Below, in pieces: positions 2,194 through 18,044 of a stretch of 54,219 nucleotides of DNA; position 1 is the first letter of the stretch, and every line of letters begins with the position of its first letter. This DNA comes from an uncultured Sphingomonas sp. (GTDB taxonomy: Bacteria > Pseudomonadota > Alphaproteobacteria > Sphingomonadales > Sphingomonadaceae), in NCBI RefSeq assembly GCF_902806265.1, contig NZ_CADCVZ010000014.1, positions 1 through 54,219 of the forward strand, given 5' to 3'. The notes below the pieces were generated by a model. It ran no database searches. It was not told the origin of the DNA and was given only the letters and a program-made list of their open reading frames with translations. Both the position numbers and the translations under genes were made by a program.

Positions 2194-4155
2194 ATGTGCG
2201 GACTTGCCGGTTATCTGACTGCGGGCGGCGTGAGCGACGAGCTGCTGCGGCGCATGGCAGGAAGCATCGCGCATCGGGGGCCGGATGACGAAGGGCTGTG
2301 GTGCGACGGCGATGCCGGGATCGGCCTGGCGCACCGGCGGCTGGCGATCGTCGACCTCTCGCCCCAGGGTCACCAGCCGATGGGCTCGGCCGACGGGCGC
2401 TGGCTGATCGTCTTCAACGGTGAAATCTACAATCACCGCGCGGTGCGTGCGGCGCTGGAGCGGGAAGGGGCGGTGCCTGCCGGAGGGTGGCGGGGGGCGA
2501 GCGACACGGAGACCCTGCTGCAGGCCGTTTCCGCCTGGGGCCTCGAGCGTGCGCTGGAGGTATCGGCCGGCATGTTCGCGCTGGCGCTGTGGGATCGGCG
2601 CGAGCGGCTGCTCCACCTGGTCCGCGATCGCTTCGGGGAGAAGCCGCTCTATTATGGATGGGCCGGGGGCGATTTCCTGTTTGCGTCAGAGCTCAGGCCG
2701 CTGCGGTGCCATCCCGAGTTCCGTGGCGAGATCGATCGGGGTGCGCTCGGCCTGTTCGCCGCACGCGGCTATGTTCCGGCGCCCGCGACCATCTACCGCC
2801 GCATGTATAAGCTGGAGCCAGGGTGCATCCTGACCGTTTCGCGCGGGGCGGTTGGCCGGGCCCTGGACGAGGCGCCCGCGGCGGGGTCGCCCGGCCATGC
2901 GGACGTGCGGCTGCGGCGCTACTGGAGCTACCGCCAGGTGGTGGAGCAGGGCCTGGCCGAACCGATCGCGGACGGGGCCGAGTGCCTCGACAGGCTCGAT
3001 GCAGTGCTTGGCCAGGCGATCGCCGAGCAAGCGGTCGCGGACGTTCCGGTCGGCGCCTTCCTGTCGGGCGGGATCGACAGCTCGGCCGCTGTCGCATTGT
3101 ACCAACGGCATTCGGCCTCGCCCGTGCGGACCTACACCATCGGCTTCGACGAAGGCGGGTTCGACGAGACGGCGGCTGCCCGCGCCGTAGCCAAGCAGCT
3201 GGGCACCGTTCATCATGAACATCGGGTCGGTCCGGCCGAAGCCCTCCAAGCCATTCCGCTGCTTCCCAGCATCTACGACGAACCGTTCGCGGACAGCTCT
3301 CAGATCCCGACCTTTCTGGTGAGTCGCTTCGCCCGCCGCGAGGTCACCGTAGCCCTGACCGGCGACGGCGGTGACGAACTATTCGGAGGCTACCATCGCC
3401 ACTTGGCCGGGCCGCGGCTGTGGCGCTCGCTGGCCCGCATTCCCCGACCGATCCGTGCTCTCGCTGGTCCGCTTGGGCGTCTTCCGTCAAGCCTTTGGCA
3501 AGGGCTGCTGCCGGGTCCGCGGGCCCATGCGGGCGCCAAGATCGCCAAGGGGCTGCGAGTCGCCGCCACCGCGCGGAGCCTCGACGACGTTTATGGGAGC
3601 TTCACGGACGAGTGGCGCTTCGAGCCGCCCCCAGTGCTGGGCGCGGGTGGCGCGGCGTCAGGTCACTTCAACCCGCTCGTGAGCGCTCCTGATGCCGTGC
3701 GCCTGATGTACGCGGACGCGGTGAACTATCTGCCGGGCGACATCCTGTGCAAGGTCGACCGCGCCGCCATGGCGGTCAGCCTGGAGACGCGGGTTCCGTT
3801 CCTCGACCACCGCGTGGCGGAGCTCGCCGCTCGCATCCCGCTCCCGTTCAAGATCGTTGGGAGCAAGGGCAAGTGGATCCTGCGCGAGCTCCTGGCCCGC
3901 CACTTGCCGCGCGGCCTGTTCGACCGCCCGAAGACCGGCTTCGCGGTGCCCGTCGGCGAGTGGATCAAGGGCCCGCTGCGACCCTGGGCCGAGGCGCTCC
4001 TGGACCCGGCAAGGATGCGCTCGGAAGGCTATTTCGATGCCGATGTTATTCAGGCGCGCTGGCGCGGTCACCTGAGCGGCCGCCAGAACGCCACGGCCGC
4101 GATCTGGTCGATCCTCATGTTCCAGGCATGGCTGGACCGGCAGCGCGAGGGCTGA
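2194..4155 (+). CDS. asnB: Asparagine synthase (glutamine-hydrolysing), EPS-associated
   Basis: A complete class B amidotransferase of 653 residues. The N-terminal glutaminase domain starts MCGLAGYL, exposing the catalytic Cys2, with the expected HRGPDDEG and FNGEIYN motifs. The C-terminal synthetase domain has the ATP-pyrophosphatase loop SGGIDSS (about 291-297) and TGDGGDELFGGY. It would transfer glutamine ammonia to aspartate or, as suspected for homologues in polysaccharide loci, to a carboxyl group such as a uronic acid of the EPS. Context (sugar aminotransferase, glycosyltransferase, Wza/Wzc) favours the latter role, but the sequence does not decide it. It contrasts with the Cys-less homologue at 15750-17633. 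Confidence 0.93.
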   Translation: MCGLAGYLTAGGVSDELLRRMAGSIAHRGPDDEGLWCDGDAGIGLAHRRLAIVDLSPQGHQPMGSADGRWLIVFNGEIYNHRAVRAALEREGAVPAGGWRGASDTETLLQAVSAWGLERALEVSAGMFALALWDRRERLLHLVRDRFGEKPLYYGWAGGDFLFASELRPLRCHPEFRGEIDRGALGLFAARGYVPAPATIYRRMYKLEPGCILTVSRGAVGRALDEAPAAGSPGHADVRLRRYWSYRQVVEQGLAEPIADGAECLDRLDAVLGQAIAEQAVADVPVGAFLSGGIDSSAAVALYQRHSASPVRTYTIGFDEGGFDETAAARAVAKQLGTVHHEHRVGPAEALQAIPLLPSIYDEPFADSSQIPTFLVSRFARREVTVALTGDGGDELFGGYHRHLAGPRLWRSLARIPRPIRALAGPLGRLPSSLWQGLLPGPRAHAGAKIAKGLRVAATARSLDDVYGSFTDEWRFEPPPVLGAGGAASGHFNPLVSAPDAVRLMYADAVNYLPGDILCKVDRAAMAVSLETRVPFLDHRVAELAARIPLPFKIVGSKGKWILRELLARHLPRGLFDRPKTGFAVPVGEWIKGPLRPWAEALLDPARMRSEGYFDADVIQARWRGHLSGRQNATAAIWSILMFQAWLDRQREG

Positions 4156-7833: not shown

Positions 7834-8538
7834 ATGGCTGCCATGACGACGAAAGCTGCAATCCTGCTTTTGCCGGCGGCACTGCTTCCGCTGCTCGCGA
7901 CGGGCTGCTCGGAAGGTCGGGGCGGGCCGATTCCGTACGACGTTCCGCTTGCCGCGCCCGACGCGCCAACCATTGTTCCACTTGAGTCCAGCTACCGCAT
8001 TGCGCCGATGGACACAGTGAGCGTCAAGGTGTTCAAGATGCCGGACTTGTCGGGCGACTATGAGGTGGACCTAACGGGGCAGATAGCGATGCCGCTGATC
8101 GGCAGCGTCCCTGCCGCCGAACTGACCACCACGCAGCTCGACCAGGCGCTGACCAGCGCATACGGCGTCAAGTATCTGGAGAACCCCGACATCAGCGTCG
8201 GGGTCAAGGCGTCCACCCGGCGCAGCGTAACGGTGGACGGGTCGGTCAAGAACTCGGGCTCGTTCCCGGTGACCGGGCCGATGACCTTGATCCAAGCCGT
8301 GGCCCTAGCCGGTGGCACCGGCGAGGATGCCAACTCACGCCGGGTGGCGGTGTTCAGAACCGTCAGCGGCAAGCGGCAGGCAGCGGCGTTCGACCTTACC
8401 GCCATTCGCCGCGGTCAGGCCCCGGACCCGCAGATCTACCCCGGCGACATCGTCGTGGTCGATGGCTCGGCCATCAAGGCCACCCAGAAGTCGATCCTCA
8501 ACAGCCTGCCTATCTTCTCCATCTTCCGCCCGTTCTGA
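7834..8538 (+). CDS. Polysaccharide export lipoprotein, Wza/GumB family
   Basis: A 234-residue outer-membrane export protein with a lipoprotein signal sequence ending in LATGC (lipobox). It continues with the Poly_export domain (YRIAPMDTVSVKVFKMPDLS) and one SLBB-like domain (SVTVDGSVKNSGSFPV, then MTLIQAVALAGG). GGTGGAGAAAGG lies 5 bases upstream of the ATG at 7834, a strong ribosome binding site. It is shorter than E. coli Wza and closer to GumB in size. It forms the export channel together with the polysaccharide co-polymerase encoded immediately downstream. The preceding 127-base gap from the phosphatase gene probably contains a promoter, though none is obvious. Confidence 0.93.
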   Translation: MAAMTTKAAILLLPAALLPLLATGCSEGRGGPIPYDVPLAAPDAPTIVPLESSYRIAPMDTVSVKVFKMPDLSGDYEVDLTGQIAMPLIGSVPAAELTTTQLDQALTSAYGVKYLENPDISVGVKASTRRSVTVDGSVKNSGSFPVTGPMTLIQAVALAGGTGEDANSRRVAVFRTVSGKRQAAAFDLTAIRRGQAPDPQIYPGDIVVVDGSAIKATQKSILNSLPIFSIFRPF

Positions 8539-8576
8539 CGGGCCACCGCAAATCGGTCGAAGCCTAGGGGTTACGC

Positions 8577-10778
8577 GTGAACAGGGACGTGGCGATCACC
8601 GCCGACAATCGGAGCCTCAGCGATCGCGTGACTGTGTCGCGCAGCCCGGCCCAGGCGGAGGTGCGGCTTCACCATGCGCCCAAGCTGGACCTGCCGACCC
8701 TGCTTAGGATCGTGCGGGAATGGCGCTGGCTGATCCTCGGCGCGATCGCCCTGGGCCTGGCTGGCGGAGTCATCGCGACGGTCCTCACCACCCCCCTTTA
8801 CAAGGCGTTTGTCACGCTGGAAGTGAACCCGCCCGTGGTCGAGGTGAGCGACGAGCAAACACGCCAGCGGGCCCAGTCGGGCGACACTTGGGACTTCCTG
8901 CAGACGCAGGTCGGACTACTCGGGAGCCGCAGCTTGGCCGAGCGGGTCGCCCAGGATCTCAACCTGGCCGGCAACCCGCGATTCGCAGGGGAAGGCGGCA
9001 GCGTTGCGGACCGGCTCAAGACGGCCACCGCGCGGGTAGCGGGCGGGCTGGCGGTGCAGGCACCGGAGGAAGGCCGGCTGGTGCGCTTCAGCTATACGTC
9101 GGACGACCCGCAGCTCGCAGCGCAGGTGGCCAATGGTGTTGCGGACAGCTTCATCAACTCCAACCTGCAGCGCCGGTTTGAAGCTTCCGCCTACGCCCGC
9201 CGCTTTCTTGAACGCCAGATCGCCAAGACCCGCAACGACCTGGAGCGGTCGGAGCGCCAGCTGGTTGCCTATGCGCAGAGCCAGGGGATCATCAGCCTTG
9301 GCACCGGCGTCGGCAGCGACGGCAAGTCCGAGTCCACGGGTTCGCTCCAGGGTGAGTCGCTGGTGGCCTTGAACCAGGCACTGGCGACGGCGACCGCCCG
9401 CCGCGTGGCCGCGGAAGGGGCCTACCGGTCCGCGCAGGCGTCGGGAGCAACCAGCGAAGTGAACACCAGCACCCAGCCGATGCGCCAGGCGCGCGCCGGC
9501 CTGGAAGCGGAATATCAGGAAAAGCGCACGCTGCTGAAGCCCGATCATCCGGACATGGTGAGCCTGCGCTCACGCATTGAAGAGCTTGACCGGCAGATTG
9601 CGCGCGAAACATCGCAGGTGGCGGGTGGGCGCAACAACTCGCTTGCCCAGGAATACCGCGGCGCCCTGTCGGCGGAGCAGGCGCTGCAAAGCCGCGTCAA
9701 CGCGCTGCGGGGTTCGGTTCTCGACCTCCGCGGGCGCAGCGTGCGCTACAACATCCTCCAGCGGGAGGTAGACACCAACCGCGGCCTGTATGACGCGCTG
9801 CTGCAGCGCTACAAGGAGATCGGCGTGGCTGGCGGCATCGGCGCCGCCCCGGTCTCCATCGTCGACCGTGCCGAAGTGCCGGGCGGTCCGTTCAAGCCGA
9901 GCCTGCCGTTCAACCTGCTGGCAGGTCTCGGCGTGGGCTTGCTGGGCGGGCTCGGACTGGCGGTCGGGCTTGAGTTCCTCAACGACACAGTGAAGACCCG
10001 TGAGGACGTCCGCACCAAGCTGCAGCTTGCCGCGCTTGGTGCAGTTCCGCGCCGGTCCGGCAAGGGCAGCTTCGTTGAGGACCTGCAGGATCCGGGTTCG
10101 GCGGTCTCTGAAGCGTACGCCGCCATCGCCGCGTCGCTGCGGTTCAGCACGGAAGAGGGGGTGCCTCGGTCGTTGCTGGTGACTTCAACCGAAGCGGGGG
10201 AGGGCAAGTCTTCCACTGCGCTGGCCTTGGCGCAGAATTTTGCGCGGCAGGGCCGCACGGTGCTGTTGATCGACGGCGATCTTCGCAAGCCATCGTTCAA
10301 GGCGGCGGACGACGACCAGGGCCTGACCAAGCTCCTCACCAACCATGACGATGTCGGCTCCCATGTGCTGCCAACCCAGTTCGAGAGCCTGTGGCTGCTG
10401 CCGTGCGGCCCGCTGCCGCCTAACCCCGCGGACCTGCTCTCCACCCCGCGCTTCGGGCAAGTGTTGAGCGAGGCAACCAGCCAGTTCGATGCGGTGATCG
10501 TCGATGCGCCGCCCGTGCTGGGCCTGGCCGATGCACCGCTGCTGGCTTCCCTGGTCGCCGGTGTACTGTTCGCGGTCCAGAGCGGCAAGACCCGCACCCG
10601 CGCTGCGGTCGAGGCCCTCAACCGGCTCGAGGCTTCGGGCGCGCACATACTTGGCGCAGTGCTGACCAAGTCGGCGGAAAATGAGTCGGGGTACGGCTAC
10701 TACAACTATCGCTATGGCGCCGTTGAGGACGGCCGGCGCGAGAAGATCGTCATGATCCCACATCGGGCGGACGTCTGA
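8577..10778 (+). CDS. Polysaccharide co-polymerase / tyrosine autokinase, Wzc/ExoP family
   Basis: A 733-residue inner-membrane protein controlling EPS chain assembly and export. It starts with GTG. A Wzz domain is bracketed by membrane helices near residues 51-71 and 440-468, with a coiled-coil periplasmic region between them. The C-terminal BY-kinase has Walker A (STEAGEGKSS, about 537), Walker A' (LLIDGDLRKPS, about 563), Walker B (VIVDAPPVLG, about 640) and a terminal tyrosine cluster, YGYYNYRYG, as the autophosphorylation tail. Fusion of the Wzz and kinase domains is the usual Gram-negative form. It is separated from the export lipoprotein gene by 38 bases and is presumably in the same operon. 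Confidence 0.95.
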   Translation: MNRDVAITADNRSLSDRVTVSRSPAQAEVRLHHAPKLDLPTLLRIVREWRWLILGAIALGLAGGVIATVLTTPLYKAFVTLEVNPPVVEVSDEQTRQRAQSGDTWDFLQTQVGLLGSRSLAERVAQDLNLAGNPRFAGEGGSVADRLKTATARVAGGLAVQAPEEGRLVRFSYTSDDPQLAAQVANGVADSFINSNLQRRFEASAYARRFLERQIAKTRNDLERSERQLVAYAQSQGIISLGTGVGSDGKSESTGSLQGESLVALNQALATATARRVAAEGAYRSAQASGATSEVNTSTQPMRQARAGLEAEYQEKRTLLKPDHPDMVSLRSRIEELDRQIARETSQVAGGRNNSLAQEYRGALSAEQALQSRVNALRGSVLDLRGRSVRYNILQREVDTNRGLYDALLQRYKEIGVAGGIGAAPVSIVDRAEVPGGPFKPSLPFNLLAGLGVGLLGGLGLAVGLEFLNDTVKTREDVRTKLQLAALGAVPRRSGKGSFVEDLQDPGSAVSEAYAAIAASLRFSTEEGVPRSLLVTSTEAGEGKSSTALALAQNFARQGRTVLLIDGDLRKPSFKAADDDQGLTKLLTNHDDVGSHVLPTQFESLWLLPCGPLPPNPADLLSTPRFGQVLSEATSQFDAVIVDAPPVLGLADAPLLASLVAGVLFAVQSGKTRTRAAVEALNRLEASGAHILGAVLTKSAENESGYGYYNYRYGAVEDGRREKIVMIPHRADV

Positions 10779-10792
10779 CCGTTCGACGGCTG

Positions 10793-11977
10793 GTGGACTC
10801 CTCCGCGACTTGGCGGATCGTCGTTGTCGCGTTGGCGGCTGTGCTGGTCAGCGTAGTCGCCATCCGGAACGCCGTCGTTCAAGCCCTTGCCGAGAAGCGC
10901 CCAGAGTTGGCGGCAAAAGTCTGGCCCAGCCATCCAAGAGTGGCAACGCAGATCTCCTTGATTGATATCGGCCGAGCCACTGCCGAGGGACGGCCACCCG
11001 ATGCAACCGTCTTCCGGCGGTTGAATGCGGTGCTCGCCCGCGACCCACTCGCGGCCGAACCGTTCCTGGTGGCGGGCACGAATGCCTTTAGCCAAGGGCA
11101 GCTGGAACGCGCCGGTGCGCTGTTGCGGGAGGCGGCGCGGCGGGATCCACGGTCTCCGGCAGCACGCTACCTGCTGGCGGATCTTTATCTGAGGCAAGGC
11201 CGAACGGCAGACGGCTTGCGGCAGGTCGGAGCCCTGATCCGGCGCTTGCCCAAGGCTGCAGGCCCGCTAACCCCGTCGCTGGCGGCATTTGCCACGCAAC
11301 CGGGAGCCGCGGACCAAGTGCGCGCCATTCTGAGCGAGAATCCTCAGCTGCGCGGCAATGTGCTGGCGACGCTCGCCGAGAACCCGGCTAATGCCGCGTT
11401 GATACTCGATTTGGCGGGTGAGCAACCACCGTCCGGTCCGCCGCCAGACTGGCAGTCGCGTCTGGTGCGAAGCCTCGTCCAAGCAGGTGATTACCGCCGG
11501 GCCTACCAGTTGTGGGCCAGGTTCGCTGGGGTTGCTCCATACGCGCAATCGGGGCTCTTCAACGCGAGCTTCAATTCCTCGCGCGCGCCGCCGCCGTTCA
11601 ATTGGACGCTGGCCGCCGGAGCCGCCGGGATCGCGGAGGCCGCACCGAACGGCGGGCTGCGCATCCTCTTCTACGGTCGCGAGGCTGCCGTGCTCGCCGC
11701 CCAGCTGATGCTGCTGAGGCCAGGGCGCTATCGGCTGCGCTACCGGCTCAGCGGGTCTCCGCCTAACGACATACCCTTGTCATGGGGAATCAACTGCCTT
11801 CCCGGCAACGAACAAGTGGCGGAAACGGCTGTCGCCGATGGAGGTGATCTGACCTTTACGGTTGGGGCAGGCTGCCGTGCGCAGGAGCTGCAGTTGCGCG
11901 GCTCCCCTGCGGAGCTGCCAGCGAACGTGGACCTCACCATCACTGGGCTCGAGCTCGTTCGAGAGGGCGCAGGATGA
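10793..11977 (+). CDS. EPS-locus TPR protein with N-terminal anchor and C-terminal beta domain
   Basis: A 394-residue protein: an N-terminal membrane anchor (WRIVVVALAAVLVSVVAIRNAV), two or more TPR-like helical pairs around residues 80-150 (DPLAAEPFLVAGTNAFSQG, SPAARYLLADLYLRQG), a linker, and a C-terminal region rich in beta strands from about residue 255 that resembles a carbohydrate-binding-like fold (RILFYGREAAVLAAQLMLL, GRYRLRYRLSG). The start is a GTG. The stop overlaps the next gene as ATGA, so it is coupled to the O-antigen ligase. It is probably a periplasmic partner of polymerisation or export. No named family was recognised with certainty. Confidence 0.75.
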   Translation: MDSSATWRIVVVALAAVLVSVVAIRNAVVQALAEKRPELAAKVWPSHPRVATQISLIDIGRATAEGRPPDATVFRRLNAVLARDPLAAEPFLVAGTNAFSQGQLERAGALLREAARRDPRSPAARYLLADLYLRQGRTADGLRQVGALIRRLPKAAGPLTPSLAAFATQPGAADQVRAILSENPQLRGNVLATLAENPANAALILDLAGEQPPSGPPPDWQSRLVRSLVQAGDYRRAYQLWARFAGVAPYAQSGLFNASFNSSRAPPPFNWTLAAGAAGIAEAAPNGGLRILFYGREAAVLAAQLMLLRPGRYRLRYRLSGSPPNDIPLSWGINCLPGNEQVAETAVADGGDLTFTVGAGCRAQELQLRGSPAELPANVDLTITGLELVREGAG

Positions 11978-13329
11978 GCGAGCGGGCGCGCCAGTTCGCC
12001 GTGCCGGCTTACGTCCTCCTCTGCCTGCTGCTGGGCGGCAGTACTCAGGGGATCCTCGGCAACCTGCTGCTTCAGCTTGGCGCGATCGCGCTTCTAGCGT
12101 GGGCGGCCCTTACCCGAAGACCATCGGTTCTAACCGACGATGCCCGTGCGCTCGGCTGGCTGAGCGCCGCCGCCGTGTGCTTGGTCGCGGTGCAGCTCCT
12201 GCCACTTCCGCCCGCGATGTGGACGATGCTTCCCGGACGGGAGTCGATCGCGCAGGGCTATGCTTCGCTGGGTCAGGAGCTGCCGTGGCTGCCCTGGTCG
12301 CTGGCGCCCTACGACACGCTGGCGAGCGGATTGTCGCTGCTGCCTCCGTTGGCGGTCGTGGCCGGCATCGTTCGGCTCGGAGCGCATCGTGGTCGTTACC
12401 TGGCGATGGCCATCGTGGTCGGGACCGTAGCGGGGATCTTGCTCGGCGCGGTTCAGGTCAGCAGTCGATGGGGCTACCTGTACAGCTTCACGAGTCGAGG
12501 GCAGGCGGCTGGGTTCTTTAACAACGCCAATTACATGGGCACGCTGCTGCTGACCGCCATCCCGTTCACCCTGGCCCTGCTGGCGCGGTATCGGGCAGGA
12601 GGAGGCCAAGCCTGGCGCAAGCGGTTCGGGGTCTATGGGTTGATCGCGGGCGCCTTTGCGCTGCTGCTGCTAGGACTGGCGCTCAACCGGTCCATGGCGG
12701 CCATGCTGCTGAGTGTTCCCACGCTGCTGGCCAGCGCGGCGCTGTTGGTTGCGCCAGGGAGCAGGGCGCGGCTCGCGTTGGCCGGAGTGGCTCTCGTGAC
12801 CGGCGCGGTCGGGTGCATTGCGATAGCCAGCACGACCGCCCTGGTGCGCGGCGAGGCGGCCGTGTCCGTTTCCACCCGGCAGGACATCTACGCGCGCTCG
12901 GCCCAGATCGCGGGCGACATGTTCCCCGCCGGCGCGGGTCTCGGCGCCTTCCCGCGGGTCTATCCCTGGTATGAGAACCCCGACATTGTCGACTTCGTGT
13001 ACGTCAACCATGTCCATAACGATTATCTGGAGCTGGTGCTCGAGGCCGGGCTGCCGGGCGCGCTGCTCCTGCTCGCGGCGCTGTTCTGGTGGGTACGGCG
13101 CAGCGTGCAAGTGTGGCGCTCGCCGGTCAGCGGGCGTTTCGCACAGGCGGCGACGATCGCTTCGGCGGCCATCCTTGCGCACAGCGCGGTCGACTTCCCG
13201 ATCAGAACCGCAGCCATCGCCGCAGTGTTCGCCACATTGATCGCGCTGATGGCGGAGCCGCGGGTCCGTCGAACCCCGGAGCCGGAAGGGGTCAGGACTC
13301 GTCCTGCCCGCCACCTGAGTCTGGACTAG
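11974..13329 (+). CDS. O-antigen ligase / Wzy-type polymerase family protein
   Basis: A 451-residue polytopic inner-membrane protein of the Wzy_C family with about ten hydrophobic helices. The large periplasmic loop carries the family's landmarks: RGQAAGFFNNANYMGTLLL and, later, VNHVHNDYLELVLEAGLPGA (the conserved H-x-x-H-N-D-Y block). It would polymerise EPS repeat units or ligate chains on the periplasmic face. The start overlaps the upstream TPR gene (ATGA). Its last 38 bases overlap the 3' end of the convergent nucleotidyltransferase gene. It is the last recognisable gene of the EPS transcript. Confidence 0.9.
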   Translation: MSERARQFAVPAYVLLCLLLGGSTQGILGNLLLQLGAIALLAWAALTRRPSVLTDDARALGWLSAAAVCLVAVQLLPLPPAMWTMLPGRESIAQGYASLGQELPWLPWSLAPYDTLASGLSLLPPLAVVAGIVRLGAHRGRYLAMAIVVGTVAGILLGAVQVSSRWGYLYSFTSRGQAAGFFNNANYMGTLLLTAIPFTLALLARYRAGGGQAWRKRFGVYGLIAGAFALLLLGLALNRSMAAMLLSVPTLLASAALLVAPGSRARLALAGVALVTGAVGCIAIASTTALVRGEAAVSVSTRQDIYARSAQIAGDMFPAGAGLGAFPRVYPWYENPDIVDFVYVNHVHNDYLELVLEAGLPGALLLLAALFWWVRRSVQVWRSPVSGRFAQAATIASAAILAHSAVDFPIRTAAIAAVFATLIALMAEPRVRRTPEPEGVRTRPARHLSLD

Positions 13330-14470
13330 CTCGGCGATTGACTATGATTGACTTGAGCTGCCGCCGAGCTTCGCGCGCGGCAAAGCCGAGACCGGGCTTG
13401 AGCAGTAGCTGCGCATAGTGAATGCGACGCGTCCCCAGCAGTCGCCCAGTGGGTTCAGCTTCGTCCGCCAACTCCGCCAGGCCCAACCGCAACAGCTGGC
13501 GATGCGTAGGATGGTGCGCGAGTCCCAGGCGCTCGACGCTTGCTCCGGCTACGCCGAGCAGCCGCTGGCACAGCAGCAACGCCCAGGCAGAGGCGCGGCC
13601 TGCGCCCAACTCAGACGCGCGTCGATGCAAGCGCTCGATTTCCGCCTCGGACTTCGCGGCGATCAGCGCGGCGAAGTCGCACAGCCATTTCAGCCGGAAC
13701 CAAGCACTCGATGCCCCATGAACCGCGAGATAGGCAAACAGCTTTTCCGGATGCAGGGTAGGGAGCGTCACGCCCGGCAACACCTCCACCAACTGAGTTG
13801 CCGAGAAGGGGTTCAGCTCGTCGAGCAGCTCGGGGTTGTCCGCCAGCCGGGTGTGCAGTTCGATGGTCAGGCCACCGTCCCTGACCCAGACGGACTCCTT
13901 GTTGCGGCGATGCCATGCGGCGATGGCGCGAACATCCAGGGGGAGGATGGCCGCATAGCCGAGCCGCTGCAGAAGCACCGCGGCGGCCGGCAGGTCGGCG
14001 GGTTGGACGAGGATGTCGACGTCCCACCCCATCTTCACGAACGGGTCGCCATAGGCCAGCTGCCCGACTGTGATCCCCTTCAGGAACAACAGGGGAAGTG
14101 AGGCCTTATCGAAGGCCGCCCGGAGGTCGCCGCACAGGCTGACTGCGCGCAGCCCGTCTGCTGCGATCGTGCGCCGGTCCGCTTGCAGGGCGGCCCGGAC
14201 CGCTGCCGGCACGCCCACACGCAGTTGTTCGAGACCTGCGGAGCAAAGACCCTGGACGCGGTGGCGTCGCGCAAGCGCCAAGAAGCGATCCCAGTTGAGA
14301 TCGGTCAGGTCGTCCAGAACCGGAGCGCCGCTCCTGGGGAAAGACGCCGCACAGCTCTGGCGCAGCAGCCGGAACTCGGCAGTCTCTATGGACGTGAACG
14401 ACAATCGCGATGGCGCTCCGGTTGCGCTTGCCATGGGCAGGCGCGATGGAAGATCGGGTGACGCCCTCAA
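13292..14470 (-). CDS. Nucleotidyltransferase family protein (PF14907-type), RiPP/EPS associated
   Basis: A 392-residue protein of the uncharacterised NTP_transf_5 family. The nucleotidyltransferase core is visible as LPLLFLKGITVGQLAYGDP followed by MGWDVDILV, supplying the two aspartates (about D150 and D152). The Arg usually seen just before the D-x-D is Gly here. Members recur next to HPr-kinase-like genes in lasso-peptide clusters and EPS loci, where their substrate is unproven; the peptide or its phosphate is a plausible target. The start is uncertain: TTG at 14470 has AGGTG nearby, while the ATG at 14434 has no ribosome binding site. It is divergent from the kinase gene with almost no space between them. 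Confidence 0.8.
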   Translation of the reverse strand: MRASPDLPSRLPMASATGAPSRLSFTSIETAEFRLLRQSCAASFPRSGAPVLDDLTDLNWDRFLALARRHRVQGLCSAGLEQLRVGVPAAVRAALQADRRTIAADGLRAVSLCGDLRAAFDKASLPLLFLKGITVGQLAYGDPFVKMGWDVDILVQPADLPAAAVLLQRLGYAAILPLDVRAIAAWHRRNKESVWVRDGGLTIELHTRLADNPELLDELNPFSATQLVEVLPGVTLPTLHPEKLFAYLAVHGASSAWFRLKWLCDFAALIAAKSEAEIERLHRRASELGAGRASAWALLLCQRLLGVAGASVERLGLAHHPTHRQLLRLGLAELADEAEPTGRLLGTRRIHYAQLLLKPGLGFAAREARRQLKSIIVNRRASPDSGGGQDES

Positions 14471-14489
14471 TCAACACCTACGGCGCGTG

Positions 14490-15407
14490 ATGGGCAACTT
14501 CGTTTATCGTGCCTTTGGCCTGACGCTTTGGAGCGGATTCCCGCTGGAGGGTCTTGCCCGCGGCGACCCGGCGGCGCCCACCGACCTCGTCATCGCGCAA
14601 GCGACGTTCGGCCCGGACTGTCCAAGCGAGCCTGGCCTGCACCAATGGGGTGGCGGCGCCTTGTTGTCCGTTCCTCGGGCAGGACGCTTTCTTTGCACTG
14701 GCGGTTCCCGGATCGCCGTAGAGCCTGAAGCGCACGCGCCGCAGGGCAACGTCCAGCTGTTCCTGTTTGGCTCGGCGATGGGCTTGATCCTGCATCAGCG
14801 TGGCCTGCTGCCGCTCCACGCCAATGCCCTGCAGGTCGGCGCGCAGGCGATCGCCTTTATGGGCCCGAGCGGCGCCGGCAAGTCGACGCTTACCGCTTGG
14901 TACGCCGAGCAGGGCCACCGGATCATCGCCGATGACGTCAGTGTCGTGGGGACCGACGGGGCTGGACGCCCGTTCGTTCAGCCGGGGCTGGCGCGTATCC
15001 GGCTGTGGCGGCAGGCGCTCGAAAGCTTGGGCGGCAATCCGGACAATCATTCGCGATCGCTCGTGGGCAACGCTGGTTTCGACAAGTTCGACGTGGCCGT
15101 GTCCCCGTGCAGCATCAGCGACGGGCCCGTGCCGCTTCGTGCAATCTGCCTGCTGCAGTTCGGGCCTGCTCCCGCCGTGACGCGGCTCACCGGCATCGAC
15201 GCACTCGAGGCGTTGTACGAGAACACCTACCGGGGCGCGTTCGTCACGGTGACGGGCGCCGCGCAGCCGCATTGGGAAAGCTGCGTCCACTTGAGCAGGA
15301 CGGTGCCAGTGCTGAGAACGGTTCGGCCGGAGTCCTTGCCTGACCTCGGCCAACACGCCCGCGCGATGATTGCCGAGGTGCTGAAGGCAACCGAGCGTCA
15401 GGCCTAG
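14490..15407 (+). CDS. HPr-kinase-like peptide/protein serine kinase
   Basis: A 305-residue protein whose C-terminal half is an HprK-type kinase domain: P-loop MGPSGAGKST (about 124-133), then HRIIADDVSVV with the paired acidic residues (about 148-149). The N-terminal half (YRAFGLTLWSGFPLEGL) is typical of HprK relatives found in lasso-peptide clusters and EPS loci, not of true HPr kinases, which carry a different regulatory domain. In characterised lasso clusters such as paeninodin, kinases of this type phosphorylate the C-terminal Ser of the precursor; the precursor here also ends in Ser. An HPr-rel-A-type role is the alternative. It is transcribed opposite to its putative partners and ends 10 bases from the convergent PqqD-like gene. 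Confidence 0.85.
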   Translation: MGNFVYRAFGLTLWSGFPLEGLARGDPAAPTDLVIAQATFGPDCPSEPGLHQWGGGALLSVPRAGRFLCTGGSRIAVEPEAHAPQGNVQLFLFGSAMGLILHQRGLLPLHANALQVGAQAIAFMGPSGAGKSTLTAWYAEQGHRIIADDVSVVGTDGAGRPFVQPGLARIRLWRQALESLGGNPDNHSRSLVGNAGFDKFDVAVSPCSISDGPVPLRAICLLQFGPAPAVTRLTGIDALEALYENTYRGAFVTVTGAAQPHWESCVHLSRTVPVLRTVRPESLPDLGQHARAMIAEVLKATERQA

Positions 15408-15417
15408 TCGGGCACGA

Positions 15418-15738
15418 TCAGCGCGCGTCGGCAGCCGCCTCGACCTGCTCAGCCAATCCCGTCTCGACCAACTCGTGCAGGAGCGCCGCAAGTTCCTCCG
15501 TGCAGCGTTCGGCGTTGACCTCATACTCCTCCATCAACTCCCGACGAAGCTCAGCAAAGCTGCGGGTCTGAGCCAGCAGCTTCCAAGTCGAGGTGGCAAC
15601 AGGGTTGAAGCCGAAGCACTTGCCGAGTTTCACGTCGAGCGCGACCAACTCGTCATCCACCTCGGCTTCTAGCAGGCTGGTCGCACGGGCAAACAGGGTG
15701 TCTTCGCTGATCCGCATACCTGCTCTTTCTGCTGTCAT
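15418..15738 (-). CDS. PqqD-like RiPP recognition element protein (lasso B1-like)
   Basis: A 106-residue PqqD-family protein: three beta strands (DTLFARATSLLEAEVDDELV, ALDVKLGKCFGFNPVATSTW) followed by helices (SFAELRRELMEEYEV, CTEELAALLHELVETGLAEQ). The GFNPVATSTWKLL stretch corresponds to the conserved leader-binding face of RiPP recognition elements. It would bind the leader of the precursor at 17715-17846 and present it to the cyclase-like enzyme. It starts 11 bases after the stop of the upstream synthetase-like gene, so the pair is clearly an operon; an alternative ATG lies at 15717. No peptidase domain is fused, as in split B1/B2 lasso systems. Confidence 0.88.
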   Translation of the reverse strand: MTAERAGMRISEDTLFARATSLLEAEVDDELVALDVKLGKCFGFNPVATSTWKLLAQTRSFAELRRELMEEYEVNAERCTEELAALLHELVETGLAEQVEAAADAR

Positions 15739-15749
15739 CACCGGGCCGT

Positions 15750-17633
15750 CTAGTTGGTGCCTTTCACCTTGCGCATGAAATGACCGGCGGAAAGACCCCG
15801 CAGAAGTCCCAGGCGGTAGCGGTCCCGTGTCGCGGCCTGCGACCAGTCGCTCGGCCAGTCGGCCAGAGCCTCGTCCACCCAGGCCAGCTCCAACGCCTCC
15901 GCCGCCTCTGGGCAACGCGCGATCGCCGCGACTTCCTGCTCGATCTCGGGGCGGGCAAGGTCCATCGCCTCGTACCAGTCGGCGGATTGATACCCGCGCA
16001 GCGCGAAGCCGGCGACCTCCGGCGGCAGCCGATCCGCAAAGGCTCGCCTTGCCAGCGATCGTGCAATGCCATCGCGGACGAACTCCTCGGGCGGAGCAGC
16101 AAGGCAGTATTCGATGATGCGGCGATCGGCGGTCGGGTCACGGACGCTCAATCCCCATTCGCCCAGCACGCCCTTGTAAGCGTTTCCTCCATCCGCGCGG
16201 CGCAGCGCCCAGAGTCGCGTCTCGAACGGCTTTCCAGCCGGGCGACCCGCATGGTCCAGCTCGAGCGACTCGGCGCGCATCCTGCTGACGGCCGACATGG
16301 CCAGCGTATCCTCGACCCTGCCGGTCATCTTCCGGAGCGCCCGCCATATGGCTGGCGGGACGAACGGGCCAACGGCATGCGCTCCCAGCGACGTCAGCGA
16401 CCGGCCTCGACGCGCCAGGGCAAGGCTGATCCCGGCAAGCTTCAGGAGCTGGCCGCTCGTCAGCAGCTGCGCCAGCCATTCCAGTCCTGAGTAGCTGATC
16501 GTCAGATTGCCAGCCGATGCCTTGAAGATGACCTTTGAACCACTGGCACGCGAAGCGGCATGGATGGCCTGTCCCCAGACGGCGTTGGTGAGGTTCGCCA
16601 TCGGTTGCTGCTGGTAAGCGAAGTTCCGGTCGAGCCATCGCATTGGGGACTCCGGCCGGCCTTCGATCCGTACATGTTCAACGTTCGGGTATCTGCGGGC
16701 CGTCGCGGCGGCGAGCTCCCACTCGTTCGCGATGGTGCCGGGGGGTATGGGGCCGGCGAAGCCCGCTCGGGGCACCGCGGTGTAGGCGATGACCTGCGCG
16801 TCGGGCCGGTTCTTGGCCACCGTTGCCGTTACGGTCGAGCTGTCGAGACCCGCGCTGAGCTGCGTTGCAATGGTGTCGCCGGCGCCGCGCAGCTGAGCTG
16901 ATACGACCTCATCGAGCAATGCCCGCAGCCCAGCCGCATGATCCTGTGGCGAGCCGGTCGTGTTGGCGGGCCGGGGAGGGTTCCAATAAGCTTGCGAACG
17001 CGTGCCATGCACGGTGACTCGCAGCAGGTGCGCAGGCTCCACCCGTTCGATCCCCGTGAAGAAGGTCTCCGACCCCGTCCGCGGGGCAAGTGCAAGATGC
17101 TTCATCATGCAGCCCGTGTTCAGGTCGTAAGGGACGTCGGCAAGTGCATGCAGGCCGCTCGGCATGGAGGCGAATGCAAAGAAGCCCGGACCGCGATGAA
17201 AGCAGAGCGGACGCAGGCCGAGGATGTCCCGGCCAAGCAGCAGCTCGCCAGCGTCGGCGTTCCAAAAGGCGAAGGCGTACTCGCCGGCCAGGTGATCAAC
17301 CGTCGCGGCACCCCACGCGAGCAGAGCTTCAAACAACAAAGCCGCGTCGCACAGCCGGGCCTGTTCGACCCGCGACAAGCCTAGCTTGGCGGCAAGCTCC
17401 AAACGGTTGTCCAGCCGGACGTCCGCCACGAGGCGGAAGTTGGCGCGCTGTTGCGGTCCGCGATCGAACCTGTCTTCGGGAAGGATGGCGAACAGGTTGC
17501 GGCCGAGCGCAAGGACGCCGTCGTCGTTCAGCGCGCGATGGCTGCCGTACAGCGCTTGCCCTTGAAGCATGCGCTCACAATCCTGGCCCGGCGGCTTGCC
17601 GTTGAAGGACCAGAAGCCGGCAAGGGCCGTCAA
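15750..17633 (-). CDS. Asparagine-synthetase-like protein, lasso cyclase (C) homologue without glutaminase Cys
   Basis: A 627-residue homologue of AsnB with the two-domain layout. Position 2 is Thr (MTALAGFW), so the glutaminase nucleophile is absent, as in lasso cyclases that activate an Asp/Glu side chain with ATP. The pyrophosphatase loop is QLSAGLDSS (about 258-266). The block matching GDGGDELFGGY in AsnB reads SAGNLTISYSG (about 373-383), losing the acidic residue, so the active site is a variant. The start is a TTG at 17633, supported by GGAG 7 bases upstream; the nearest ATG is out of frame. It lies 81 bases downstream of the precursor gene and 11 bases upstream of the PqqD-like gene. 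Confidence 0.85.
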   Translation of the reverse strand: MTALAGFWSFNGKPPGQDCERMLQGQALYGSHRALNDDGVLALGRNLFAILPEDRFDRGPQQRANFRLVADVRLDNRLELAAKLGLSRVEQARLCDAALLFEALLAWGAATVDHLAGEYAFAFWNADAGELLLGRDILGLRPLCFHRGPGFFAFASMPSGLHALADVPYDLNTGCMMKHLALAPRTGSETFFTGIERVEPAHLLRVTVHGTRSQAYWNPPRPANTTGSPQDHAAGLRALLDEVVSAQLRGAGDTIATQLSAGLDSSTVTATVAKNRPDAQVIAYTAVPRAGFAGPIPPGTIANEWELAAATARRYPNVEHVRIEGRPESPMRWLDRNFAYQQQPMANLTNAVWGQAIHAASRASGSKVIFKASAGNLTISYSGLEWLAQLLTSGQLLKLAGISLALARRGRSLTSLGAHAVGPFVPPAIWRALRKMTGRVEDTLAMSAVSRMRAESLELDHAGRPAGKPFETRLWALRRADGGNAYKGVLGEWGLSVRDPTADRRIIEYCLAAPPEEFVRDGIARSLARRAFADRLPPEVAGFALRGYQSADWYEAMDLARPEIEQEVAAIARCPEAAEALELAWVDEALADWPSDWSQAATRDRYRLGLLRGLSAGHFMRKVKGTN

Positions 17634-17714
17634 CGCGGTACTCCGTTACTCATCTCCGAAGCAGGCGATAACGCCGCGTCGTCGCAGCATCGGATCTGCG
17701 GCCCGGACCTTCAG

Positions 17715-17846
17715 TTATGAGTTGTTGAGAGCACTGCCGTTGTCGCCGTCGTCGCGCTGTCCGTTGTTGAACTCGGCCGCACCAGCTCGCATTCGCCTGA
17801 CCTCCGGCTTGCGCCACACCTTTTTCGACATCGGCTTGTCCGGCAC
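17715..17846 (-). CDS. Putative lasso-like RiPP precursor peptide
   Basis: Very short gene just upstream of the cyclase and PqqD-like genes on the same strand. From the ATG at 17831 it encodes 38 residues starting MSKKVWRKPEVRRMRAG. From a GTG at 17846 it encodes 43 residues and gains AGGGAG exactly 7 bases upstream, so the GTG is preferred. An in-frame stop lies 8 codons further up. The leader motif W-R-K-P-E-V fits the (Y/W)-x-x-P-x-(L/V) signal read by PqqD-like recognition proteins, followed by A-G-A-A-E. The C-terminal part is Asn/Asp/Gly-rich (GQRDDGDNGSALNNS) and ends in Ser. There is no Thr at the usual position -2 and no unambiguous core start. Identification rests on motif and location, not homology search. 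Confidence 0.72.
   Translation of the reverse strand: MPDKPMSKKVWRKPEVRRMRAGAAEFNNGQRDDGDNGSALNNS

Positions 17847-17967: not shown

Positions 17968-18044
<77 letters not shown>

Follow-up and report, generated by a model that had tools for sequence, protein, structure and literature searches.

A probable paeninodin-type lasso-peptide pathway with genes split over the genome, beside an exopolysaccharide locus of an uncultured Sphingomonas

The stretch of DNA analysed here (the window) is the entire 54,219-nucleotide contig C14 (NZ_CADCVZ010000014.1) of an uncultured Sphingomonas, and its genes very probably belong to a paeninodin-type phosphorylated lasso-peptide pathway that is split over the genome. 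Five adjacent genes, lying 13 kb and 36 kb from the contig ends, encode a lasso precursor (A, 17715–17846, minus strand), an Asn-synthetase-like lasso macrolactam synthetase, here called the cyclase (C, 15750–17633, minus), a discrete, PqqD-like recognition element for ribosomally synthesised and post-translationally modified peptides (RiPPs) (B1, 15418–15738, minus), an HprK-like peptide kinase (K, 14490–15407, plus) and an NTP_transf_5 nucleotidyltransferase (N, or NTase, 13292–14470, minus). All five frames are open in the window, as an open reading frame check confirmed. The precursor, cyclase and PqqD genes are co-directional and likely form one operon; the kinase and NTase genes are divergent. 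The sequence-only reading had assigned these families to these places and strands and had seen in them a peptide-modification system of the paeninodin type. The first claim holds, with some family scores below curated cut-offs, and the second is supported by family matches, precursor rules, the kinase motif and a B2 protease gene elsewhere in the genome. The presence of the genes, their intact motifs, the precursor rules and the gene linkage can be read directly from the DNA.

The tiny gene at the start of this operon encodes 43 amino acids, beginning either at a GTG at 17846, which GGGAGA precedes by six bases, or at an ATG at 17831, and its product matches no family in NCBIfam or Pfam, the two libraries with which the window proteins were scanned at curated cut-offs. 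Its leader has the form ...W..P...AGAAE and is followed by the predicted core FNNGQRDDGDNGSALNNS, which ends in Ser. A profile search over the loci examined returned 33 distinct cores following W..P...AG.AE, the window core included; four of them come from outside the genus set described below (L054, L055, L067 and L095) and several from near relatives. Matches with E>1e-3 were not counted, and two with E<=1e-3 that do not show the AG.AE pattern (L088 and L056) were left out, both having by eye an acid at 8 or 9 after AE or AQ. Asp or Glu stands at position 8 or 9 after the junction in 32 of the 33 cores, compared with a mean of 5.2 and a maximum of 13 in 20,000 rounds of shuffled cores, and in 18/19 of the cores that had been left out of profile building. 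Ser is the last residue in 32 of the 33. The sole core with no acid at 8 or 9, that of G028 (L046), has Gln at 8. W..P and Ala(−2)-Glu(−1) are invariant in 14 aligned precursors, with Trp where Tyr is classical in the aromatic-x-x-Pro motif.

In lasso peptides the ring acid stands at core position 7–9 (PMC10368454; this paper, PMC9266682 and PMC13381572 are cited from excerpts). Both Asp7 and Asp8 of the window core fit this rule, and Asp8 is taken as the predicted ring acid because Asp before Gly is the usual context in the family. Other cleavage registers of the window precursor were considered (one with the A of AE as first core residue, which places an acid at 9, and one beginning two residues downstream, which places an acid at 8), and, on reading the list by eye, the family-wide acid at 8 or 9 appears only with a cut after AE. 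The 33 related cores, obeying lasso-like position rules, rule out a spurious frame, and the tiny gene is on this sequence evidence a real one. The sequence-only reading had proposed asking whether homologous loci lack it. Among the 30 same-genus genomes with a cyclase of at least 270 bits, 26 have a precursor match, and the other four (G003, G381, G256 and G372) have another small W/Y..P gene by the cyclase, as read by eye.

The cyclase matches NF033535 at 204.6 bits (E 2.9e-60; cut-off 525) and Asn_synthase PF00733 above its cut-off. Its SAGLDSS ATP-binding motif is intact, and S260, G262, D264 and S265 are invariant in 12 aligned sequences. Cys at position 2 is absent from the window cyclase, as the sequence-only reading had noted; since all 12 aligned cyclases share the absence, it is no departure of this gene. 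B1 matches PF05402 at 51 bits (cut-off 23), and a search of solved structures with its profile (A3) returned TbiB1 (E 7e-13), TfuB1 and two further PqqD-family chains.

Several related loci deserve mention in their own right. Four same-genus genomes hold a sister lasso-like set in the order kinase-PqqD-B2-precursor-cyclase-NTase, with L128 lacking a B2 match; its precursors lie at 9309–9509 of L127, 8554–8676 of L128, 11063–11251 of L129 and, on the minus strand, near 11600–12100 of L130. The predicted cores of this set have no Asp or Glu, so the usual lasso-cyclase bond would be impossible there, and position 8 after VA is occupied by Gln in 4/4; all five acid-free cores, the fifth being that of G028 (L046) in the main family, have Gln8. 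The cyclase is split into two frames in G023 (L048, 9571–11480) and in G373 (L127, 9625–11507), with neighbouring lasso genes still matching the profiles. A related cyclase and kinase in L060 occur on a contig titled as an Akkermansia muciniphila metagenome-assembled genome, possibly a misbinned contig.

The kinase has TIGR04352 as its top NCBIfam match (33 bits, compared with a cut-off of 200), and its Pfam matches are all below their cut-offs. Its structural model (predicted local distance difference test score, pLDDT, 91.9) has phosphoenolpyruvate carboxykinases, which are related to HPr kinase, as the closest solved folds, and a sequence search put HPr kinases on top. H110, K131, D148 and D149 are invariant in nine sequences; His-Lys-Asp-Asp is the motif of lasso kinases (PMC9266682). 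By sequence, the kinase and the C-terminal Ser of the core would match a paeninodin-type kinase and its substrate. The NTase matches PF14907 at 164 bits (cut-off 31), with D119 and D121 invariant in seven sequences. Over its catalytic part the model (pLDDT 80.8) resembles the MenT1 and ANT(2'') nucleotidyltransferases, and weakly FKRP, which supports a nucleotidyltransferase fold and not any particular substrate. The start as called is probably too far upstream, with a Met 12 codons in. We propose that this enzyme is the counterpart of PsmN and BsfN. Sequence searches of the PDB with the NTase and B2 profiles returned nothing useful.

A whole-genome family search found a single B2 match in the same genome (G000), at 58272–58694 of contig C59, which was again the sole match with a genus-level profile. 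It scores 62.2 bits with NF033537 (cut-off 33), and Cys78 and His112 are invariant (10/10). The gene adjoins an EpsG-family polymerase gene and dTDP-rhamnose-type genes. The nearer end of its contig is 19 kb away, which, with the 13 kb on C14, puts a distance of at least about 32 kb between the cluster and the B2 gene. Among the relatives found, the nearest is another uncultured Sphingomonas (L052, 74% cyclase identity; G356/G385, taken as one genome from identical contig positions). It likewise has no B2 on its 10.9-kb cluster contig and has a B2–EpsG pair on another contig. In G025 (64% cyclase identity) B2 lies between the NTase and kinase genes, where the window has none. The sequence-only reading had raised the possibility of a new RiPP class, which does not survive this result: a class without B2 is ruled out by the B2 in trans, above its NCBIfam cut-off, and the precursor obeys the ring-acid rule.

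Each chemical step of the pathway, and the order of the steps, is modelled on characterised relatives. The PqqD-like B1 would bind the W..P leader of the 43-residue precursor, and the HprK-like kinase would phosphorylate the C-terminal Ser. Next, the B2 protease, whose gene lies in trans beside EpsG, would cut after AGAAE. The Asn-synthetase-like cyclase would activate Asp8 with ATP and close an 8-residue ring by linking Asp8 to Phe1, the new N-terminus. The NTase may add a further group, probably a sugar or a nucleotide, on the phosphate. In paeninodin the kinase acts on the C-terminal Ser of the precursor, before maturation, and PsmN puts a hexose on a phosphorylated Ser (PMC9266682); B1 assists both the kinase and B2 (PMC10368454). 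The window peptide, too, is probably phosphorylated at its tail.

To see how the genes are arranged across the genus we used 71 same-genus genomes, drafts included, of which 27 have a precursor match; genes on different contigs were scored as not close. The distance table takes one match per gene per genome, the best cyclase or precursor where there are two, except that for G367 the pair adjoining Wzy was used and not the higher-scoring cyclase. The precursor lies 23 to 341 bp from the cyclase in 26/27 genomes. The cyclase has B2 within 5 kb in 10/26 and B1 in 15/27, and the full set (N, K, B2, B1, C and A) is found within 15 kb of the cyclase in 8 of the 27. Five genomes (G020, G023, G031, G362 and G367) have two precursor matches with single B2 and B1 matches; the kinase is single in these too, apart from a second, 42-bit match in G023. 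At the thresholds used, B2 and kinase profiles match 49/71 and 48/71 genomes, some of them without this precursor but with other lasso-like sets. The roaming precursor–cyclase pairs of three genomes (L043, L045 and L047) sit at a similar place, near genes that we take to be glmM-like and parC-like.

In the window, the lasso genes are preceded by an exopolysaccharide (EPS) block at 7834–13329, all on the plus strand and with its families backed by Pfam. It comprises genes for a Wza-like polysaccharide export protein (7834–8538; PF02563, 75 bits), a Wzc-like chain-length/tyrosine-kinase-type protein (8577–10778; PF02706 and PF13807), a tetratricopeptide repeat (TPR) protein (10793–11977; library matches) and an O-antigen-ligase/Wzy-like protein (11974–13329; PF04932, 43 bits), the conserved neighbour of N; the order of the Wza-like and Wzc-like genes is kept in relatives. 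On the other side the cluster is bordered by a tRNA-Pro (TGG) at 17968–18044 on the minus strand, and its placement between the EPS genes and this tRNA was correct in the sequence-only reading. A second Asn-synthetase, with Cys2 and strong PF00733 and GATase scores, is encoded upstream of the EPS genes (2194–4155); several relatives have a cyclase-profile match resembling it a few kb from an ATP-binding cassette (ABC) exporter gene.

The link between the lasso tailoring genes and this block recurs across the genus. Where precursor genomes have both genes, NTase and Wzy-like gene are separated by 3 to 409 bp in 24/25, and the kinase is within 5 kb of Wzy in 23/26. Cyclase and Wzy are separated by over 5 kb in 12/26, and 11 of these 12 have the NTase behind the Wza-Wzc-TPR-Wzy operon all the same; in G014, the exception, a complete cluster that includes an ABC exporter of its own lies 178 kb from Wzy. 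In Sphingomonas cremea, a cultured relative, one locus (L075) brings EpsG, B2, PqqD, cyclase, K and N together next to the EPS operon. Of the B2 genes, 16 are over 5 kb away from the cyclase. Eleven of these have an EPS setting, five of them adjoining N or K within the EPS operon (G004, G019, G020, G028 and G031) and six beside EpsG (G000, G359, G362, G365, G380 and G385); the remaining five (G008, G010, G016, G363 and G367) are near no profiled EPS or lasso gene. A close Wzy homologue (at least 270 bits) occurs in 26/27 precursor genomes (Fisher test on 26/1/20/24 genomes, p 6.6e-6, relatedness ignored), but also in 20/44 of the others, which speaks against a general link. That N, and in most cases K, sits where the EPS operon ends suggests a peptide that may act in or on the exopolysaccharide or be made together with it.

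Several observations weigh against a paeninodin-type pathway with dispersed genes. The cyclase, B1 and kinase all fall under curated NCBIfam cut-offs, in the case of B1 those of lasso-specific models. Residue −2 is Ala and not the classical Thr, at a position that is not strict, Ile having been shown and Ile, Val or Ala predicted elsewhere, and the leader Trp stands at −15, compared with −17 for the YxxPxL of bsf-type leaders (PMC10368454). As 19/32 tails lack any F/W/Y/H/L/I/M, it is not obvious what would serve as a plug for threading. That the C59 B2 acts in trans on the window precursor is a prediction. No ABC exporter is encoded in the window's cluster, and the best match in its genome to the G014 exporter (36% identical, 176 bits) is on contig C62, not C14. 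Relatives of that exporter adjoin PqqD in L107–L112 and lie near an EPS Asn-synthetase in L048, L116 and L120, from which we draw no conclusion because any ABC exporter scores to some degree. The exporter (D) is common in paeninodin-type clusters and not universal, the mmv cluster being without it (PMC10368454). As for the EPS link, eight genomes have a strong NTase match (at least 195 bits) and no precursor match, and only in G372 is it beside a close Wzy; it is 11 to 28 kb from a Wzy match in four, with none near in G379, G003 and G381.

The composition of the tails, many of them short and Gly/Asn/Ser-rich past the ring acid, would also suit an unthreaded (branched-cyclic) macrolactam, or a peptide held by its modified C-terminal Ser instead of a bulky plug. 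We regard such a product as unlikely: Lys or Arg near the last Ser is common among the cores and could plug, and the cyclase and B1 are homologues of lasso proteins. The place that B2 occupies in G025 is empty in the window, as would be expected of a decaying cluster that had lost B2 and its function; however, every frame and checked catalytic motif is intact, B2 is present in trans, and the related G385 has its B2–EpsG pair on a contig other than its cluster, which leaves decay very improbable. The EPS neighbours, and the Cys2 Asn-synthetase in the same locus, could in principle mean that all these genes serve polysaccharide assembly and that the tiny gene is spurious. We give this hardly any credence, given the lasso-like rules of the 33 cores, the precursor–cyclase pairs found away from EPS genes and the poor fit of the window cyclase to TIGR03108, the XrtA/PEP-CTERM EPS amidotransferase (79 bits, compared with a cut-off of 816.9).

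A more serious rival, which we hold to be possible though not the likelier case, is an ordinary lasso pathway whose place in an EPS locus is historical and has no functional meaning. The G014 arrangement, the 12/26 genomes with a distant cyclase, the close Wzy in 20/44 genomes that have no precursor match, the NTase beside Wzy in only 1/8 genomes with a strong NTase and no precursor match and the 5/16 unlinked B2 genes with neither EpsG nor kinase or NTase close by are all consistent with it. On the other side, N has stayed beside Wzy in 24/25 though other pathway genes have moved, 11/16 unlinked B2 genes are in an EPS setting, and the same association is described in Bacilli (PMC13381572). 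At the opposite extreme, the mature phosphorylated lasso peptide could belong to the structure of the exopolysaccharide itself. An EPS-pathway sugar would be linked by the NTase to the C-terminal phospho-Ser, and the ring-bearing peptide would cap, prime or decorate the polymer and leave via Wza/Wzc and not an ABC exporter. Several roaming precursor–cyclase pairs would share a single tailoring set (N, mostly K, often B2) that stays fixed in EPS loci. We offer this as a long shot.

The dispersed paeninodin-type pathway favoured here has practical consequences. The gene arrangement shows that a lasso pathway can have B2, and even B1, far from the precursor and cyclase, so genome mining that relies on B2 being linked will overlook or misinterpret systems of this kind. 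An AE junction followed by an acid at position 8 or 9 provides a simple pattern for finding further precursors. Among the matches listed in the open-licence literature, we found no account of a tie between tailoring genes and EPS in this genus, of a pathway with B2 (sometimes B1) in trans or of the AE junction, and the matches listed for lasso peptide with Sphingomonas or exopolysaccharide held no paper on this system.

We then compared the window system with known ones. With paeninodin, ThcoK and SyanK, the last from the sphingomonad Sphingobium yanoikuyae, it shares the C-terminal Ser of the precursor, B1, B2, C and an HprK-like His-Lys-Asp-Asp kinase (PMC9266682), and it differs in its unlinked B2, Ala at −2, the lack of an ABC exporter in the cluster and the dispersal of its genes across the genus. 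Like the Bacillus pseudomycoidin cluster with PsmK and PsmN, it has a kinase and an NTase; the PsmN hexose on phosphorylated Ser was seen in a heterologous host (PMC9266682). The bsf cluster of Bradymonas shares A, B1, B2, C, K and N, a non-Thr residue at −2 and a ring acid at 8, but has Ile(−2), phosphorylation at Ser3, an ABC exporter in the cluster and clustered genes (PMC10368454). The closest parallel in setting is provided by the paeninodin-like and linear polyphosphorylated peptide (LPP) clusters of Bacilli, where kinase, NTP transferase, recognition element and lasso genes lie inside polysaccharide loci, as in the window (PMC13381572). Those clusters are from Bacillota, with a SpI peptidase in the LPP ones, whereas the window represents an alphaproteobacterial genus with dispersed genes; LPP clusters are also marked by a SipW-like signal peptidase and have no macrolactam cyclase, and the window cyclase is intact. 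Kinase/NTase lasso clusters (with a kinase one also in a sphingomonad), non-Thr residues at −2 and capsule co-localisation in Bacilli are thus already known from these excerpts. Phosphorylated lasso peptides have no known role, and the 2026 report offers a biofilm link of the Bacilli capsule loci only as speculation (PMC13381572). Because that report described the co-localisation of paeninodin-type and capsule genes, the EPS link is not new in principle. The window and its relatives show the same polysaccharide association in a genus distant from Bacilli. It is closest for the NTase and kinase, so that gene deletion would directly test a role in polysaccharide.

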